Origin: Parasporobacterium sp.
Lineage (GTDB): Bacteria > Bacillota > Clostridia > Lachnospirales > Lachnospiraceae
Reading direction: 5' to 3'
Assembly: GCA_017459985.1 (NCBI GenBank)
Contig: JAFUBX010000028.1
Location: 52,601-116,600, forward strand
Length of the DNA: 64,000 nt
The position numbers and the translations under genes are program-made. Below the pieces are notes generated by a model. That model saw only the letters and a list, made by a program, of their open reading frames with translations. It did no database searches and was not told the DNA's origin. Of the stretch, positions 6,574 to 43,122 are shown one piece after another; within the stretch, counting starts at the first letter, position 1; every line of letters begins with the position of its first letter.

Positions 6574-8438
6574 AGCAGTTCCTTTTCCAGTCTCTCACAG
6601 ATCGAATCCACATCGATCCGGCATTCCCGTTTCTGGATCGACACCTCGCCCTGCTCCACATACAGATTCGGGATGGCGATGGGAATCACCCGCACATCCG
6701 CGGAAACATTGTTGATATGCCGCAGAACCTCCATGCCGTACCCACCGCTGATCACATTCTCTTCCATGGTGATGATATATTTGTGGGAGACCAGCAGATC
6801 ATCGATCAGCTTCTCATCAAAGGGTTTGACGAACCGGGCATTGATCAATGTCACATTCAGCCCCTTCTCCTTCAGCCGGTGCCGCACCAGGATCGCGGTA
6901 TTGATCATGGTTCCGACGGAGATGATCGCGATATCCTTCTCCAGGAAAATCCCCTCGCTCTTTCCGAACACAAAGGGTTCCCTGAATTCTGTGGCCACAT
7001 CATCGGCGCTGCCCCTGGGATAACGGATCGCCAATGGGGCATTGAAATCCGCCGCGAACCGGATCGCATCCTGCAGTTCGATGCTGTTCTTCGGAGCAAT
7101 GATATTCATATTTGGGATCAGATTCAGATAGGAAATATCAAAAATTCCCTGATGAGTTTCCCCGTCCTGTCCCACAAGACCCGCCCGGTCAATGCAGAAG
7201 ACCACCGGAAGATTCTGGATACAGACATCATGCATGACTTCGTCAAAGGCCCGCTGCAGAAAGGAGGAATAAATCGCCACAAAGGGCTTATATCCCGCTG
7301 CAGCCAGCCCGGCGGCAAAGGTCACCGCATGCTCCTCTGCGATCCCTACATCGAAGAACCGGTCCGGGAACCGGTCCCGGAACTGACTCAGTCCTGTCCC
7401 GTCCGGCATGGCCGCTGTAATGGCCACCACCTTCGGATCCGTTTCTCCCACCTGAATCAGAGCCTGGGAGAAATGCTGGGTATAACTCATCTTCGGACTC
7501 TTCCGAAGCACCTCACCGGTGGCGGGATCGAAGGGTCCGATGCCATGGAACTTCTCCGGGTCCTTCTCCGCCGGCTTGTAGCCCTTTCCCTTCTTGGTCT
7601 TGACGTGGATCACCACCGGATGATCCATGTTTTTGGCTTCATTGATGATCTTGACCAGGGATTCCGTATCATGCCCGTCGAAGGGGCCCAGATAGGTGAT
7701 CCCGATATTTTCAAAGAACATTCCCGGAATGATCAGCTGTTTCAGGGAGCTCTTGGTCTTCTTGATCTGGCGGATCAGCTTCTCCCCGATTACCGGAACC
7801 TTGCTCAGCTTGCCCGCGACACCGGTCTTCATATCGTTGTAAAGCTCCCCGGCCCGCATCCCGGACAGGTAGGAGGACAGTCCCCCCACGTTCTTCGCGA
7901 TGGACATATTATTGTCATTCAGGATGATAATGAAATTGCGCTTCAGATTGGACGCGTAATTCAAAGCCTCCAATGCCAGTCCCCCGGTCAGGGAACCGTC
8001 TCCGATCACCGCGATCACGGTACGGTCATTGCCCTCCAGCTGGCTGGCCATGGCAAGACCCAGTCCTGCGGATAAGGAGGTGGAGGAATGGCCGGTATTA
8101 AAGGCGTCATATTCAGACTCCCTCCTCTTCGGAAAGCCGCTCAGTCCGCCGTATTCCCGCAGGTGATCAAACTGATCTGCCCGCCCGGTCAGCATCTTGT
8201 AAACATAGGACTGATGTCCCACATCCCAGATAATCTTGTCCTCCGGCAGATTGGTACACTGAAGAAGCGCCAGAGTCAGCTCCACGGCCCCCAGATTTGA
8301 CGCCAGATGGCCGCCGCTTTTTCCCACCTTCAGCACCAGGAATTTACGGATCTCCTTGGCAAGGGTAGCCAGCTGCTCCTTCGACAGGCCCTTGACATCC
8401 TCCGGTGATTTAATTGATTCTAATAATGGAAATTCCAT
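6570..8438 (-). CDS. dxs: 1-deoxy-D-xylulose-5-phosphate synthase
   Basis: Dxs condenses pyruvate and glyceraldehyde 3-phosphate using thiamine diphosphate, the first step of the MEP isoprenoid pathway. The 622-residue product has the full transketolase-like layout: the cofactor motif GDGSLTGG with NDNNMSI, the GHSSTSLSAGLG segment, and the central IAEEHAVTFAAGLA region carrying the catalytic Glu. It follows ispA by 12 bases and overlaps tlyA by four, so isoprenoid genes and an rRNA methylase are coexpressed. Confidence 0.97.
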   Translation of the reverse strand: MEFPLLESIKSPEDVKGLSKEQLATLAKEIRKFLVLKVGKSGGHLASNLGAVELTLALLQCTNLPEDKIIWDVGHQSYVYKMLTGRADQFDHLREYGGLSGFPKRRESEYDAFNTGHSSTSLSAGLGLAMASQLEGNDRTVIAVIGDGSLTGGLALEALNYASNLKRNFIIILNDNNMSIAKNVGGLSSYLSGMRAGELYNDMKTGVAGKLSKVPVIGEKLIRQIKKTKSSLKQLIIPGMFFENIGITYLGPFDGHDTESLVKIINEAKNMDHPVVIHVKTKKGKGYKPAEKDPEKFHGIGPFDPATGEVLRKSPKMSYTQHFSQALIQVGETDPKVVAITAAMPDGTGLSQFRDRFPDRFFDVGIAEEHAVTFAAGLAAAGYKPFVAIYSSFLQRAFDEVMHDVCIQNLPVVFCIDRAGLVGQDGETHQGIFDISYLNLIPNMNIIAPKNSIELQDAIRFAADFNAPLAIRYPRGSADDVATEFREPFVFGKSEGIFLEKDIAIISVGTMINTAILVRHRLKEKGLNVTLINARFVKPFDEKLIDDLLVSHKYIITMEENVISGGYGMEVLRHINNVSADVRVIPIAIPNLYVEQGEVSIQKRECRIDVDSICERLEKELL

Positions 8439-8450
8439 AATGTATCCGAT

Positions 8451-9362
8451 TTATTTTTCCCTGTTGATCAGCAGTTCGATCAGTTCCCGGAGGAACGGAT
8501 TGCGGCATCTCAGACTGTCAAAGATCTGAAGAGCCCTGTCGGTATACGCCTGCACTGCCTCATCTGCCTTTTCCAGACCATAGAGGGAAACATAGGTCTG
8601 CTTCTGATTTTTCTCATCGCTTCCGACGGGTTTTCCGAGCACGTCCTTGTCCCCCGTCACATCCAGGATATCATCCCGGATCTGAAATGCCATGCCGATA
8701 TCTCCCGCCATCTGCTCCACCAGATCGATCTCCAGATCTGAGGCTCCCGCCAGGATCGCGCCGGTCATCATAGACGCCTGCAGAAGGGCGGATGTTTTAT
8801 TTCTGTAAATATAGTTAAGGCACTCTTCATCCACAGAAAAGTCCGGATGCTGATCCGCGTAAACATCAAGATACTGGCCGCCCACCATGCCGTACATGCC
8901 GGCTTTGGCGGAAAGCACCCGGGCTGCGCTGATGCCGCCCATATAATCGTCCGGTTCCTCGCTGCCTTCAATGGCGTCGAATATGATCTCATAGGCCCGG
9001 TTCAGGAGCGCATCCCCGGCAAGGATCCCGGGAGCCTCTCCGTATCTGGCATGGGTCGTCAGCTGCCCCCTGCGGTATTCGTCATTATCCATGGCCGGCA
9101 GATCATCATGGATCAGGGAGTAGGTGTGGATAAACTCGATGGCAGCCATAAAGGCAAACAAAATCTCCGGCTCTTCCCTGCCGTTAGCAAACATCCGGTA
9201 GGTCTCCAGCATGAACATGGGCCGAAGCCGCTTGCCGCCGGCCTTGACACTGTATTCCATCGCTTCCGCCAGTTCCTGATTGTATGCATCCTCCCGGGGA
9301 AGATAATCATAGATCAGGTCATTGATCTCTTCCACATGATCGGTCAGTACTTTTTTATCCAT
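8451..9362 (-). CDS. ispA: Farnesyl/geranyl diphosphate synthase (polyprenyl synthetase)
   Basis: The enzyme builds C10-C15 prenyl diphosphates from IPP and DMAPP. The 303-residue product carries the first aspartate-rich motif DDLPAMDND (from residue 86) and the second as DDILD near 230. GGKRLRP is also present. ATG at 9362 is favoured because GGAGG lies four bases upstream; a GTG three bases earlier is possible. The ATG shares one base with the nusB TGA. Two small or aromatic residues before the first motif (HTYSLIHDD) fit a short-chain product. Confidence 0.94.
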   Translation of the reverse strand: MDKKVLTDHVEEINDLIYDYLPREDAYNQELAEAMEYSVKAGGKRLRPMFMLETYRMFANGREEPEILFAFMAAIEFIHTYSLIHDDLPAMDNDEYRRGQLTTHARYGEAPGILAGDALLNRAYEIIFDAIEGSEEPDDYMGGISAARVLSAKAGMYGMVGGQYLDVYADQHPDFSVDEECLNYIYRNKTSALLQASMMTGAILAGASDLEIDLVEQMAGDIGMAFQIRDDILDVTGDKDVLGKPVGSDEKNQKQTYVSLYGLEKADEAVQAYTDRALQIFDSLRCRNPFLRELIELLINREK

Positions 9363-9835
9363 CACGCCTCCTTCTCCGCCGGTTCCTGAGGCTGCGCTGA
9401 AGGAGCGTCAGGACTCTTCTTCTCCGAGAGATTGGCGACCTTGGCCAGTATGCCGTTTACGAAGGACCCGGAATTGTCCGTCCCGTAGTTTTTGGCCAGC
9501 TCCACCGCATCATTGATGGCCGCGCCCAGCGGAACTTTCTCGTCATACATAATCTCATAATATGCAAGACGAAGTGCCGTCAGGTCCGCGTGATTCATCC
9601 GCCTCACCTTCCAGCCCACGCTGATCCGGTCCAGGGCTTCATCGATCTCCGGGATCTTTTCGCATACGTTCAGCACCCGCTCGGAAACAAACTGTTTCTC
9701 CCGGTCATTGAACTCTTCTTCATCTGCGAAAAAGCTCTTGATCTGTCCGGGCATTTCCGCAAGGTCGTAATAATCCGCCCGGAACAGGATGATAAATGCA
9801 GCTTCCCTAAGCTCTGTCTTTCTTGTAATCTTCAT
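9362..9835 (-). CDS. nusB: Transcription antitermination factor NusB
   Basis: NusB acts with NusE/S10 on rRNA operon leader RNA. The product starts MKITRKTELREAAFIILFRADYY and contains LDRISVGW and the C-terminal core EVPLGAAINDAVELAKNYG-like segment. A Ser/Pro/Glu-rich tail of about 20 residues follows. ATG at 9835 is chosen with AAAGG eight bases upstream. xseA and xseB, often located between nusB and ispA, are absent. Confidence 0.94.
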   Translation of the reverse strand: MKITRKTELREAAFIILFRADYYDLAEMPGQIKSFFADEEEFNDREKQFVSERVLNVCEKIPEIDEALDRISVGWKVRRMNHADLTALRLAYYEIMYDEKVPLGAAINDAVELAKNYGTDNSGSFVNGILAKVANLSEKKSPDAPSAQPQEPAEKEA

Positions 9836-9850
9836 TTCCGTACCTTTCAT

Positions 9851-9877
9851 AACAAAAGGGTGCCTTAAAGACACCCT
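9851..9877 (-). terminator. Terminator after rlmH
   Basis: AGGGTG (9857-9862) pairs with CACCCT (9872-9877) and is followed on the minus strand by TTTTG. It separates the rlmH operon from nusB. Confidence 0.6.
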
Positions 9878-9886
9878 CCATATCGA

Positions 9887-10366
9887 TCATTTATGGTATG
9901 GCTCATGTCTGGCAATTTTAAAGGATCTGTAAATTTGTTCCAATAATATGATTCTCATAAGCTGATGGGGAAATGTCATGTCGGAAAAACTCAGTTTCAG
10001 ATCCGCCCGATCCGATACTTCCGGTGACAGTCCCACCGATCCTCCGATAACAAACGTAATATCCGGTCTCCCTGTTGTCCGCAGTTCCTCCAGGTGTCCG
10101 GCAAATGCTTCCGAGGTCATCCTCTTTCCTTTGATTTCCAGTGTGATCACATACTCTCTGTCAGATAAATTATCAAGGATCTTTCTGCCTTCTTTTTCTT
10201 TCACCTGTCTGATGAGGCTTTCCGGCGCGCCCTCCGGGCATTTCTCATCCGGAATCTGGATCATCTCCAGCCTGGTATAGGGCCCGAGACGTTTGATGTA
10301 TTCCTGTGCCGCTTCGGTTAAATAGGATTCCTTCAGTTTCCCGACGGCAATGATCCGGGTTACCAT
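9887..10366 (-). CDS. rlmH: 23S rRNA pseudouridine-1915 N3-methyltransferase RlmH
   Basis: RlmH is a SPOUT-class homodimeric methylase acting on helix 69 of the 70S ribosome. The 159-residue product has the typical VGKLKE start, the knot motif FVIGGSVGLSPEV and the end FPHQLMRIILLEQIYRSFKI. The length is exactly that of the family. The start ATG overlaps the last seven bases of the upstream zinc-ribbon gene. Confidence 0.97.
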   Translation of the reverse strand: MVTRIIAVGKLKESYLTEAAQEYIKRLGPYTRLEMIQIPDEKCPEGAPESLIRQVKEKEGRKILDNLSDREYVITLEIKGKRMTSEAFAGHLEELRTTGRPDITFVIGGSVGLSPEVSDRADLKLSFSDMTFPHQLMRIILLEQIYRSFKIARHEPYHK

Positions 10367-36781: not shown

Positions 36782-36793
36782 CTAAAACGTCAT
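36782..36793. repeat. 12-bp direct repeat, right flank of hip module
   Basis: CTAAAACGTCAT is the partner of 35160-35171. It overlaps the first base of the atpC stop codon complement. Confidence 0.85.
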
Positions 36794-37194
36794 CAGTGCC
36801 CCTTCTTCACCCGGAGGCGGTTCAGGGCACGGGAAAGGGCTACCTGGGACTGGCGGTATTCCAGTCCGCTCATCCTGCGGCGCAGCCGGGCGCGGGCCCG
36901 TTCCGCAGCCTCCCGGGCACGGTTTTCGTCGATTTCATTCGGCCGTTCCGCGGAATATGCCAGGATGGTGACCTCGCCATTTTTGATCTCCAGCAGGCCG
37001 TCCGACACCGCGTAGATCTCCTGTCTTTCGCCGGTATCAAAGGTCAGCTCTCCGTTCACCAGAGCCGCCACCATATTGGCGTGATCCGCCAGGATCCCGG
37101 CGGATCCGTCACTCAGGGGGACCTTCAGACTGACGCAGGGGCCTTCGTATTCTTTTTCATCCGCGCACAGAAAGCGCAGGGTAAATGTCTTCAT
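36793..37194 (-). CDS. atpC: ATP synthase epsilon subunit
   Basis: This is the F1 central-stalk subunit that regulates ATP hydrolysis. The 133-residue product has the beta-sandwich features VPLSDGSAGILADHANMVAAL and the two-helix C-terminal domain rich in Arg/Ala (ENRAREAAERARARLRRR). It is the last gene of the atp operon, 19 bases after atpD. Confidence 0.95.
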   Translation of the reverse strand: MKTFTLRFLCADEKEYEGPCVSLKVPLSDGSAGILADHANMVAALVNGELTFDTGERQEIYAVSDGLLEIKNGEVTILAYSAERPNEIDENRAREAAERARARLRRRMSGLEYRQSQVALSRALNRLRVKKGH

Positions 37195-37213: not shown

Positions 37214-38623
<1,410 letters not shown>

Positions 38624-39511
38624 TCACTGATTCTTTTCTCGTTTGCCGGCTTTGACGCTGGCGGAGATCTCGGTGATCTCCTGGGTAATGCTGCCCTGCC
38701 GCAGACGGTTGTACTGAACCGTCAGAGTGCTGATCAAGTCGTCCGCATTCTTGTTGGCGGCATCCATGGCTATCATCCGGTCGTTCTGCTCGCAGCAGAA
38801 GGAATACACCATGATGGAATAGATCACGCCGATGCAGTACACCGGGATGCATTTTTCCATCACTTCCATGGGGGACGGGACGTACTCGAATTCCACCTCT
38901 TCCTCCTCCAGGGATTCCGTAAAATGGCTGATCTTAAAGGGCAGCAGCCGGTAGGTCACGGCCTCGGAGGCCAGGGCGTTCCTGAAATCTGTATAGATCA
39001 CATACACACTGTCGATCTCGCCCCGGTCGTACCGGTCCATGATATTGCCCGCCATCATCCGGGCCTGATACAAGGACGGTTCGATATCCGCGAAGTTGAA
39101 ATGCTCGTCCACAGGAATATGATGGGAAGCGAAATAATGCTTGCCGTATTCTCCCATGACAAACAGAACATAGTCTGGATGCCGTCCCATGATCCGCAGG
39201 GCTTCCTTGATCACGTCCTGATTATAGGCGCCTGCCAGGCCTTTGTCCGCCGTCATCACCAGGATGCCGGTCCTGCCCTCGTAGACCACCGGGTCGTCAT
39301 CATAGACCAGATAGCGGCTGTCCTTCACATCGATCTTCCGGACAATATTGCCGATCTGCTCCCGCAGCTTTGCAAAGAAGGGTCTGATATCCTCCAGGCT
39401 CTTCCGGGCCTTTCTCAGCTTGGTGGAGGAGATCAGATACATGGCATTGGTGATCTTCTTCGTGTCCTTTATGCTGTTTATTCGGTTTGCGATTGCTTTT
39501 GTGTCAGCCAT
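38624..39511 (-). CDS. atpG: ATP synthase gamma subunit
   Basis: The central-stalk rotor subunit has the N-terminal helix [18 protein letters not shown] and the C-terminal helix [18 protein letters not shown] with [22 protein letters not shown] is the conserved middle motif. It begins 34 bases inside the end of atpA in another frame, so translation is tightly coupled. Confidence 0.96.
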
Positions 39512-41229
39512 TCTTCCTTTGCGGCAAATGCCTGGGCAATAATCTGTTCCTTATCTTCTGCCGTCAGATCCCCGGTTTCATCGATCCGGCTGCAGATGTC
39601 CGGATGAAGCTGTCTGAAATCCCCGGTGATACGGGTCAGAAACCGGGGGATCTCCTCCGGCTCAATGCCCTCCAGGGTGTGGGCCAGAGCCGCGGACAGG
39701 ATAATCACCTTATCCACATGGGCATAGGGATGATTCAGGTTCTGCCGGAGCATCCGCATCAGCCCCTGGCCATAGGCCAATTGCCTTCTGGTTTCGTCAT
39801 CCAGATCGCTGGCGAACTGGGTAAATACTTCCATCTCCCGGTATTGCGCCAGATCCAGACGCAGCGTGCCGCCCGCCTTCTTGACCGCTTTGGTCTGGGC
39901 ATCGCCGCCCACACGGGAAACGGAAAGTCCCACATTAACAGCGGGCCGCTGACCCGCGAAAAACAGGCTGCTCTCCAGAAAGATCTGTCCGTCGGTGATG
40001 GAAATGATATTGGTGGGAATATAGGCGGAGACATCCCCTGCCTGGGTCTCCACGATGGGAAGAGCGGTAATGCTGCCGCCTCCCAGCTCCGGACTCAGCC
40101 TTGCGCTTCGTTCCAGCAGTCTGGAATGAAGATAAAACACATCTCCCGGGTAAGCTTCCCGTCCGGGGGGCCGGTCCAGCAGAAGGCTCAGGGTCCGGTA
40201 GGCCACCGCGTGTTTGGACAGATCATCATAAATGATCAGCACATCCTTTCCCTGGTACATGAAATATTCCGCCATGGCGCAGCCGGCGTAGGGGGCGATG
40301 TACAGCAGCGGATCCGCATCCGAAGCGGTGGCAGCCACCACAATGGTATAATCCATGGCCTTCTGCCTGCGCAGATTTTCCACCAGCTGGGCAACGGAAG
40401 AAGCCTTCTGTCCGATGGCTACATAGATACAGATGCAGTTTTTCCCACGCTGATTGATGATGGTATCGGTGGCAATGGTCGTCTTGCCGGTCTGGCGGTC
40501 ACCGATGATCAATTCTCTCTGTCCCCTTCCGATGGGGAACATGGCGTCAATGGACAGGATGCCGGTCTCCAGCGGGGTATTCACAGGGCTTCGGTCAATG
40601 ATCCCGGGGGCTTTGGATTCGATGGGACGGTATCCCTCCGACGGGATCTCGCCTCTGCCGTCGATGGGCATCCCCAGGGGGTTGACCACCCGGCCCAGAA
40701 ATCCCGGTCCCACCGGGACGCCGGCGCTTTTGCCGGTTCTTCGCACCCGGTCTCCGGCGCTGATCTCATTGTCCGTATCGAACAGGACGCATCCCACCTG
40801 CTCTTCGGTCAGGTTCAGGACCATGCCCCGGACGCCATTGTCAAAGACCAGGATCTCCCCATAGGCAGCGCCTCCGAGTCCGCTGATCCGGGCGATGCCG
40901 TCACCCACCATTTCCACGGTTCCGGTTTCTTCCGGAAGAGCGGACAGCTCAAACTCCTCCAGGGACCGTTTCAGCAGCGGGATAATATTGCCGGCGGGAT
41001 AACGGTTCTTCCGGAGAGCTTCCTTGAACTGCTGCAGCAGTCCTTCCGGGCTCCAGTCATAGAGGTCATTTCCCACTTCCAGACGGAATCCCCGGCTCAG
41101 CTCCGGTTCACTGACCCAGACAAGCTCCACCGGCTCATGGTAGGTCTGCTCCAGAAAGGCCGCAAATCCTTCCTCCTGCCGCGCATCCGGTTTGAGGGAT
41201 GAATATAAAAATGCTTGTTTCTTATCCAT
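39478..41229 (-). CDS. atpA: ATP synthase alpha subunit with a delta-like N-terminal extension
   Basis: Residues from about 81 to 583 form a complete alpha subunit: [14 protein letters not shown] start helix, [16 protein letters not shown], and the noncatalytic P-loop GDRQTGKT at 243-250. The remaining 503 residues match the usual length of about 502. Residues 1-80 are extra. They contain an [17 protein letters not shown] helix-strand, [20 protein letters not shown] and a final helix, which resembles the C-terminal domain of the delta subunit (VDPSLIGG-x-V-x-GDKVID pattern). No separate atpH exists: atpF ends 26 bases upstream. The delta N-terminal helix bundle is missing. Confidence 0.93.
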
Positions 41230-41255
41230 AGATCTGTTCTTTCGTGAATTCCCCG

Positions 41256-41747
41256 CTAGCGGGATTCTCCTTCCGAGGCGGCCTTCAGGAAGCTGTCATA
41301 GGCCTCCGAGGGGTTCCCGAACAGGGCCTTCGAAGCCGCCTGAGCTGCCAGTTCCTTCACCTGCTCGCTGGTGCTTCCGAGAATCTTTTCTTTCTCCCTC
41401 TCCGCCTGGGTCCTGGCAGCAGCAAGGATCTGCTCCGCCTCCTGACGGGCCTTCTCCTGGGCGGAGCGGGTCTCGGAATCGACCCTGGCCGCGGCTTCGC
41501 TCTTCATGGCCCGGATCTCTTCTTCGGCGGCGGAGAGTCTGGCTTCGTAGGATTCCTTCAGTTCCTGGGCTTCCTTCACTTTATCGGCGGCCTGCGCATC
41601 CATGTCTTCATATTCCTTCTTCCGTTTGTCCATGAAATTCTTCACAGGCTTGTAGATCAGGAAATACAGGATCGCAAACAGGATCACCACATTGAACAGA
41701 TGCAGAAGGACCTGACTGAAATCAATATTTAACGGTAACTGACTCAT
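41256..41747 (-). CDS. atpF: ATP synthase b subunit
   Basis: The peripheral-stalk subunit has one membrane helix ([19 protein letters not shown]) at about 19-37, then a long charged coiled-coil rich in Ala/Glu/Lys to residue 163. Length is normal. It lies between atpE and atpA, leaving no room for atpH. Confidence 0.95.
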
Positions 41748-41761
41748 TGTTCACACCTCGA

Positions 41762-42229
41762 TTACAGTACAAACACGATCAAAATGGCAACGATCAGCGC
41801 ATAGATGATGGCGGTCTCGATAAACACCAGGCCCAGCATCAGCATGGTCTGGATCCGTCCGCCGGCCTCGGGCTGACGGGCAACGCCTTCGACGGATTTG
41901 GAGATGGCAAGGGCCATTCCCAGAGCACCCGCTACGGCGGCGATTCCGACGGCAATGGCGGCTGCGATGGCTTTGCTGGTCTTGGTCTGTGCCTCGGCCT
42001 GGGAAGTGAGAGCAGCATCCGCTGTTGTCTGCACGGCCTCGGCGTCCATAAGGGCGGCTTCTTCCAGAGCCGCCTCCGCTGCCGGATCTACGGCTTCCTG
42101 AGTAGTTTCTGCGGCCTGGGTACCTTCTTTGGCATCGCCGGAAGCGGACGCCAGGATCGGAATGGCAGCCCCTGTGAGTACGATCACAGCTGCAAGGGCG
42201 ATCACGATCATTTTCAGATATTTATTCAT
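41762..42229 (-). CDS. atpE: ATP synthase c subunit with signal-peptide-like N-terminal extension
   Basis: The last 70 residues are a typical c hairpin: helix 1 near 88-110, polar loop VARQPEAGG (116-124) and helix 2 with the ion-binding Glu138 in FIETAIIY. Before it lie about 85 extra residues. Residues 1-30 are signal-peptide-like (MNKYLKMIVIALAAVIVLTG, possible cleavage after ILASA). Residues 31-85 are an Ala/Glu/Thr-rich acidic linker. At 155 residues it is about twice the usual 75-90. Glu-Thr-x(3)-Tyr on helix 2 resembles sodium-binding c subunits, but the helix 1 Gln position is Met105, so the coupling ion is uncertain. Confidence 0.92.
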   Translation of the reverse strand: MNKYLKMIVIALAAVIVLTGAAIPILASASGDAKEGTQAAETTQEAVDPAAEAALEEAALMDAEAVQTTADAALTSQAEAQTKTSKAIAAAIAVGIAAVAGALGMALAISKSVEGVARQPEAGGRIQTMLMLGLVFIETAIIYALIVAILIVFVL

Positions 42230-42273: not shown

Positions 42274-43122
42274 CTACGCCTGAGTCTGTACTTTTGCTTT
42301 CTGTCTGATCTTCTTCGGTTTCTTCGGGGTCTTCTCCGTAACCTCTCCATAAAAGACAGAGGTCAGGGTGGTCAGCACATAGGCCTGGATCAGGGCGTGC
42401 AGCAAAGTAAAAAGCACGCCGACGATGATGGGGAATCCATACCTTGTAAGGGGATAGAAATACACCAGTTCCGTAACCAGTGCTCCGGAAAGGAGCGCAC
42501 CGAACAGACGGAAGCTCATGGAAATAGGAAGGGAAAAGTCCTTCAGCGTTTTTCCGACCCCCTTCAGCCCGTTGGCGATCAGACCTCCGGACATGATGAC
42601 CAGGTAAGAAAGGCACCCCATACAGATGGCTCCGTTGATATCCGCCAGCGGCGCCGGCAGGGATATGGAGGTCCCTTCGGTGGTCACCGCCTGCACGCCG
42701 AACAGTTCAAAGATGGTTCCGACAAAGATATAGGCGCCGGCCATGAAGATGTAGGCGCCCAGGAACCGGTTCATATGGGGACTGTTGGTCCGGGCCATAT
42801 TATCGAAAAGTCCCACCACCAGTTCCAGAACCATCTGGAGCTTTCCGGGAATCTTCCGGAACCGTGGCACCAGCACAAACCGGATCAGAAGTCCCAGCAC
42901 CAGAAAAATCCCGGTTACGCAGAAGGCGGAGATCAGCCCCGGATTCACCTCCATGCCCAGGAAGCGGATCTTGTTGGACTCATGGAGTACCGCGTCCTTC
43001 ATGGCGGTCTGGATACTCTCCCCGGTTCCCGGGCCGGAACGTATCAGATTGATCACCACCAGAATGACCGCGATCACAATTCCGATCACGATGAAAAAAC
43101 TGAGTTTCTGTTTTTTTGTCAT
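42274..43122 (-). CDS. atpB: ATP synthase a subunit
   Basis: The stator channel subunit has several membrane helices and the essential Arg in MSFRLFGALLSGALV. The C-terminal helix reads HALIQAYVLTTLTSVFYGE. The 282-residue length is normal. Its ATG overlaps the rnc stop codon as ATGA. No atpI gene precedes it. Confidence 0.96.
   Translation of the reverse strand: MTKKQKLSFFIVIGIVIAVILVVINLIRSGPGTGESIQTAMKDAVLHESNKIRFLGMEVNPGLISAFCVTGIFLVLGLLIRFVLVPRFRKIPGKLQMVLELVVGLFDNMARTNSPHMNRFLGAYIFMAGAYIFVGTIFELFGVQAVTTEGTSISLPAPLADINGAICMGCLSYLVIMSGGLIANGLKGVGKTLKDFSLPISMSFRLFGALLSGALVTELVYFYPLTRYGFPIIVGVLFTLLHALIQAYVLTTLTSVFYGEVTEKTPKKPKKIRQKAKVQTQA

Follow-up and report, generated by a model that had tools for sequence, protein, structure and literature searches.

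A natural fusion of the δ C-terminal domain to ATP synthase subunit α in a Parasporobacterium species, a candidate multi-stalk enzyme

We found that a Parasporobacterium sp., a gut bacterium, encodes an F-type ATP synthase whose α subunit carries the C-terminal domain of subunit δ at its N terminus, and no separate δ gene was found in the draft genome. The best reading of this operon is that it encodes a natural multi-stalk FoF1; we put the probability of this at roughly 0.64. The operon lies in the window (the whole 64,000-nucleotide stretch of contig JAFUBX010000028.1 that was analyzed) and is ordered a-c-b-(δCTD-α)-γ-β-ε, without atpH.

All of its genes are on the minus strand. Upstream of the fused gene lie atpB (subunit a, 282 aa; 42274..43122; PF00119), atpE (subunit c, 155 aa with a signal-like N-terminal extension; 41762..42229; PF00137 on residues 88 to 151), and atpF (subunit b, 163 aa; 41256..41747; PF00430). 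atpB is the sole PF00119 match in its own genome (E ≤ 0.01), and atpF is the sole PF00430 match above the cut-off of 28 bits, the second scoring 20.8. Only 26 bases (41230..41255) separate atpF from the fused atpA (583 aa; 39478..41229); atpH is missing from its usual place there, just as the first-pass annotation had claimed. Downstream are atpG (subunit γ, 295 aa; 38624..39511; PF00231), atpD (subunit β, 465 aa; 37214..38611; TIGR01039, 794.9 bits), and atpC (subunit ε, 133 aa; 36793..37194), in which both domains are matched (PF02823 and PF00401).

Two subunits of the membrane sector are unusually long. In subunit c, the signal-like hydrophobic N-terminal stretch is followed by an acidic Ala/Thr-rich linker and then by the usual hairpin. 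Subunit a is ∼50 aa longer than in fusions that retain full-length δ (282 versus 228 to 231 aa); by inspection rather than alignment, the extra length appears to be N-terminal and to include one additional hydrophobic segment. We rejected the idea that the fusion caused these extensions, because extended a and c track the window's clade. Wherever it was identified, subunit c is at least 106 aa in S-type loci outside S2 (two exceptions, of 51 and 62 aa, were taken as contig cuts), 72 to 83 aa in S2, and 74 to 81 aa in full-length fusions.

The fused α is ∼80 residues longer than usual, and all of the extra length is N-terminal. Residues 81 to 563 match the F-type α family TIGR00962 at 720.6 bits (cut-off, 484.45); the barrel, nucleotide-binding, and C-terminal domains (PF02874, PF00006, and PF00306) occupy residues 100 to 583 plus the stop codon (39478..40932). 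The extension, residues 1 to 74 (41008..41229), had been proposed to be the δ C-terminal domain, and both profile and predicted fold confirm that it is. The OSCP profile (PF00213) matches residues 5 to 72, and the first profile position that it aligns is 104 when the protein is searched and 96 when the genome is; that is, the δ N-terminal helix bundle is absent, again in agreement with the earlier proposal. AlphaFold predicts an E-H-E-E-E-H topology for the extension, and a structure search with this model returned δ/OSCP folds, b-δ chains among them. Residues 24 to 70 align with residues 128 to 174 of Bacillus PS3 δ, which places residue 1 near δ 105 and residue 74 at the δ C terminus (178); residue 82 aligns with α residue 8, so that α starts at about residue 75. 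The α N-terminal helix (residues 82 to 92; 40954..40986) is kept, as judged from the full-length AlphaFold model and from alignment to α. When this full-length model was compared with the PDB by Foldseek, ranks 1 to 3 were chains I, J, and K of the engineered PS3 enzyme 9jc1 (562 to 573 alignment columns), and rank 4 was an ordinary α covering 472 columns; 9jc1 was absent from the best 50 rows of a VIA-align search. The catalytic domain of the model is poor, with pLDDT below 50 at residues 227 to 247 and 395 to 444, and we used only its N-terminal part and overall layout.

The closest precedent is an enzyme made by design. In the PS3 δΔN-α FoF1, δ residues 105 to 178 are joined to α (Ueno et al. 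2025, PMC12229609; PDB 9jc1). The window protein has the same boundaries and nearly the same length (583 versus 580 aa): it carries the δ C-terminal domain (∼105 to 178) on the α N terminus, lacks the δ N-terminal domain, and comes from a genome in which no separate δ was found. It is thus a further natural case of the architecture proposed in 2025 (PMC12229609). The two differ in that the PS3 enzyme was engineered and had its ε C-terminal domain removed, whereas the window operon is natural, retains both ε domains, and encodes an elongated a together with a long c whose N terminus is signal-like. ATP synthases described hitherto have one a subunit per complex, and the reasoning of the PS3 study is that the δ N-terminal domain, sitting on the pseudo-threefold axis, restricts the enzyme to one stalk (PMC12229609). 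In the engineered enzyme as many as three stalks form, every one accompanied by an a subunit: cryo-EM found 0, 1, 2, and 3 stalks in 15, 51, 26, and 8% of particles (mean, 1.26), and gels showed 2.2 times as much a and 1.8 times as much b (PMC12229609). Its H+/ATP ratio was 5.8 versus 3.0, and the study gives the general formula H+/ATP = Na × Nc/3 for Na a subunits and Nc c subunits; it made ATP at a weaker proton gradient and showed weaker ATP-driven pumping (PMC12229609). The authors note that Acidaminococcus fermentans has a natural δ-α fusion from which the N-terminal domain is missing, and they note similar features in UniProt entries G4Q3K6 and A0A1I2C5T3, all of which, by their description, resemble the window protein; they consider a multi-stalk structure in A. 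fermentans "highly likely," although unverified (PMC12229609). The literature searched by title and abstract yielded no report of a natural multi-stalk enzyme or δ-α fusion beyond that paper.

Other known arrangements fit less well. Canonical bacterial FoF1 shares the remaining subunits and the order a-c-b-(δ)-α-γ-β-ε (as in loci L147 to L155) but has a separate two-domain δ, one per enzyme. The mycobacterial b-δ fusion is also present once per enzyme and keeps both δ domains. There δ is likewise joined to a neighboring subunit, but to b, according to a 2017 survey (PMC5709465); the window b is not of this type, being 163 aa long with PF00430 as its only match over cut-off. The N-ATPase was rejected on gene order, which that survey gives as β-ε-(extra)-a-c-b-α-γ, versus a-c-b-α-γ-β-ε in the window. 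The survey also describes a δ-less unit, ε-β-γ-α-b-c-a, in Clostridia and makes no mention alongside it of a δ domain within α (PMC5709465).

The fusion is widespread. A profile of the N terminus and junction (A1, 30 rows) was searched against 393 genomes of the window organism's class, each at least 90% complete and its own genome included. At least 27 of these 393 have a stop-free frame of 584 to 650 aa across the junction, which we call the short fusion; one more, G518, was counted apart because its 509-aa frame seems to be truncated where the contig ends. Junction frames of 671 to 691 aa were found in at least 11 class genomes; four that were read (L174, L175, L182, and L183) contain most of δ, and the other seven were classed by length alone. 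Among 398 genomes of the phylum, at least nine matches outside the class have a short frame: eight are confirmed fusions of the C-terminal domain alone (CTD-only), and one (G452, locus L190) gave no α by motif. PF00213 hits over cut-off in these phylum genomes (n = 338) were left out of the fusion counts, and the δ profile was built from 50 separate δs, earlier α and δ profiles having been discarded because the fusions mixed them. In the window's genus, 10 of 13 other genomes have the fused α and three have no α match; one genome of the genus also contains a second fused α fragment at a contig end (G001:C75:5-583), 49% identical to the window protein over residues 3 to 195. Named strains with the short fusion include Faecalibacterium gallinarum JCM 17207 (L107), Anaeromassilibacillus senegalensis An867 (L052), and Neglectibacter sp. 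X58 (L111).

A search of the window organism's own genome, a draft 94.75% complete, with the OSCP profile at E ≤ 10 returned a single match, the fusion itself; the suggested search for another atpH thus found none. Among the 27 class genomes listed with the short fusion, a PF00213 search found a complete δ in none of the 17 with a single α match and one complete δ in each of the 10 with a second α match (α counts are matches to the junction profile, and large lists were scored for part of the candidates only). By our own arithmetic, the chance of this 17/10 split is ∼1 in 8 million, which argues that complete δ genes belong with a second, ordinary enzyme. A strongly diverged separate δ could escape the profile, because the profile misses some diverged C-terminal domains: it returned nothing at E ≤ 0.1 for G003, G006, G007, and G012 although fused α is present, left the fused copy of G463 unmatched at E ≤ 0.05, and matched those of G263, G642, and G492 below threshold. 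G456 and G669 had additional OSCP matches at chance level (14.7 to 14.9 bits, in 909-aa frames). Putative fossils of the δ N-terminal domain upstream of the fusion in G630 and G795, each an OSCP stretch running through stops, were rejected when three frames were read, because the stretch is the b gene in another frame.

An artifact, either a complete δ in sequence absent from the draft or a misassembled fusion, is very improbable: the genome is only a draft, but those 17 single-α genomes also show no complete δ, and the same architecture occurs in 77 of 80 named loci (two of the others are cut 5′ by a contig end and L081 gave no α by motif). Not quite so remote, but still improbable, is a mixed head in which internal restart or proteolysis provides two unfused αs beside one fused copy, leaving one δ domain per enzyme. 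Some relatives do have an in-frame junction ATG with a strong ribosome-binding site (after removal of near copies, 4 of 94 window-type loci, 1 of 9 S2, and 3 of 8 out-of-class, but 0 of 8 full-length fusions). The window junction, however, contains no ATG, GTG, or TTG. In the same set, these codons are missing from the junction in 27 of 94 window-type loci (a count that takes in the window itself) and in 3 of 8 fusions with full-length δ (L156, L158, and L183), versus 0 of 9 S2 and 0 of 8 out-of-class loci. Judging from the sequence, unfused α could be made in this organism only by proteolysis or from an unusual start codon. Because the junction has no start codon, three δ domains per head seem nearly forced, and the earlier claim of three δ-like domains emerges strengthened; three stalks are not forced.

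In a multi-stalk enzyme, every α would carry the δ C-terminal domain, the binder of the b2 stalk, and the δ N-terminal domain, which normally would hold the enzyme to one stalk from its place on the threefold axis, would be gone. With three C-terminal domains and no N-terminal domain, the head would offer three equivalent stalk sockets; the likeliest assembly would have two or three b2 stalks around one c-ring, with an a subunit for every stalk. Protons per turn would equal Na × Nc, and H+/ATP could rise from about 3 to 4 to as much as ∼10 with a c10 ring and three a subunits. Such an enzyme might synthesize ATP at a low proton gradient (roughly 50 mV for 50 kJ/mol); run in reverse, it might move many protons for each ATP, although only up to a low ceiling. 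We infer the number of stalks and a subunits, the H+/ATP ratio, and the role in the cell. The putative rebuilt peripheral stalk that the first-pass annotation suggested has a direct engineered precedent with a structure (PMC12229609). Alternatively, a single stalk may form, with one δ C-terminal domain binding b2 and a, the other two idle, and the fusion merely anchoring the stalk; we regard this as unlikely, albeit a serious possibility. Half of the engineered particles (51%) are one-stalked (PMC12229609), and the window has one atpB and one atpF gene whose translation signals are no stronger than canonical ones. Relative to a taxonomically mixed set of canonical operons (86 window-type versus 13 canonical loci for atpB), the Shine-Dalgarno sequence is not stronger for atpB (p = 0.49), weaker for b and c (p = 7e-13 and 2e-13), and stronger for α (p = 8e-7); boosted translation of atpB and atpF, considered as a mark of extra a and b, was not seen. 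Against a single stalk stand the surplus of a and b on the engineered enzyme's gels and its doubled H+/ATP ratio (PMC12229609), and we found no obstacle to the other two sockets.

Full-length δ-α fusions of 669 to 690 aa with a nearly complete δ also exist (L156 to L159, L174, L175, L182, and L183) and would place three whole δs on each head unless processed. A tree of 67 α cores without the extension (45 fused rows, 3 from operons with a divergent separate δ, and 19 canonical αs) placed the fused forms and the three separate-δ operons on one side of the canonical αs (99/93*). The 28 window-type rows formed one group (93/83, unstarred; 96% of 200 bootstrap trees). A single clade of all CTD-only forms was rejected (AU test, p = 3e-36); CTD-only L165 is nested in the full-length fusions (99/92*, 99/88*, and 100/93*), and CTD-only L164 groups with two others (96/85*). 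Five changes of the δ N-terminal domain are required on the quick tree and six on the careful tree, counts that cannot separate gain from loss. Since regaining a lost homologous domain is implausible, the natural reading is that this domain was lost repeatedly, after fusion; by a symmetry argument, repeated loss would be expected if three δ N-terminal domains clash on the axis. One origin of all fusions was likewise rejected (p = 6e-6). Operons L160 to L162, each with a separate complete δ, nest inside the fused clade (98/98*), which implies that a fusion was split or that fusion occurred more than once. Eight out-of-class rows, added to the quick tree only, formed a separate group (98*).

Some relatives show further oddities. 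In L172 and L173, which also carry the short fusion, γ and β form one open frame of 794 and 786 aa (coding-strand positions 7614-9996 and 7595-9953); the γ profile covers residues 1 to 294 and 1 to 301, respectively, and β retains an ATG with a strong ribosome-binding site. Translation through these frames would join a subunit of the rotor to a catalytic subunit of the stator. In the canonical second enzymes L147 and L148, subunit c has a helix-1 Gln and a helix-2 Glu-Thr, which we take to be a Na+-binding signature; the Gln is absent in the fused L000, L156, and L164, a difference suggesting that Na+ and H+ enzymes coexist. The window organism's own genome has an rnfC match above cut-off (466 bits) and a match to the V/A-type ATPase B subunit (768 bits) that falls under the model cut-off of 844.65.

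On balance we favor, with somewhat less confidence than the reading of the window operon itself, the broader view that multi-stalk ATP synthases, with two to three a subunits per c-ring, are common in nature among anaerobic Bacillota and arose when δ fused to α and the δ N-terminal domain was then lost several times over. H+/ATP would then be set by stator number rather than by c-ring size, and fermenters could make ATP from gradients that do not suffice for ordinary enzymes. If several a subunits are present, the proton cost of ATP would be tunable far beyond the known range of 2.7 to 5 (PMC12229609). The natural series of separate δ, full δ-α fusion, and CTD-only fusion provides material for testing what sets stalk number, and because named strains carry the short fusion, this can be addressed at the bench.
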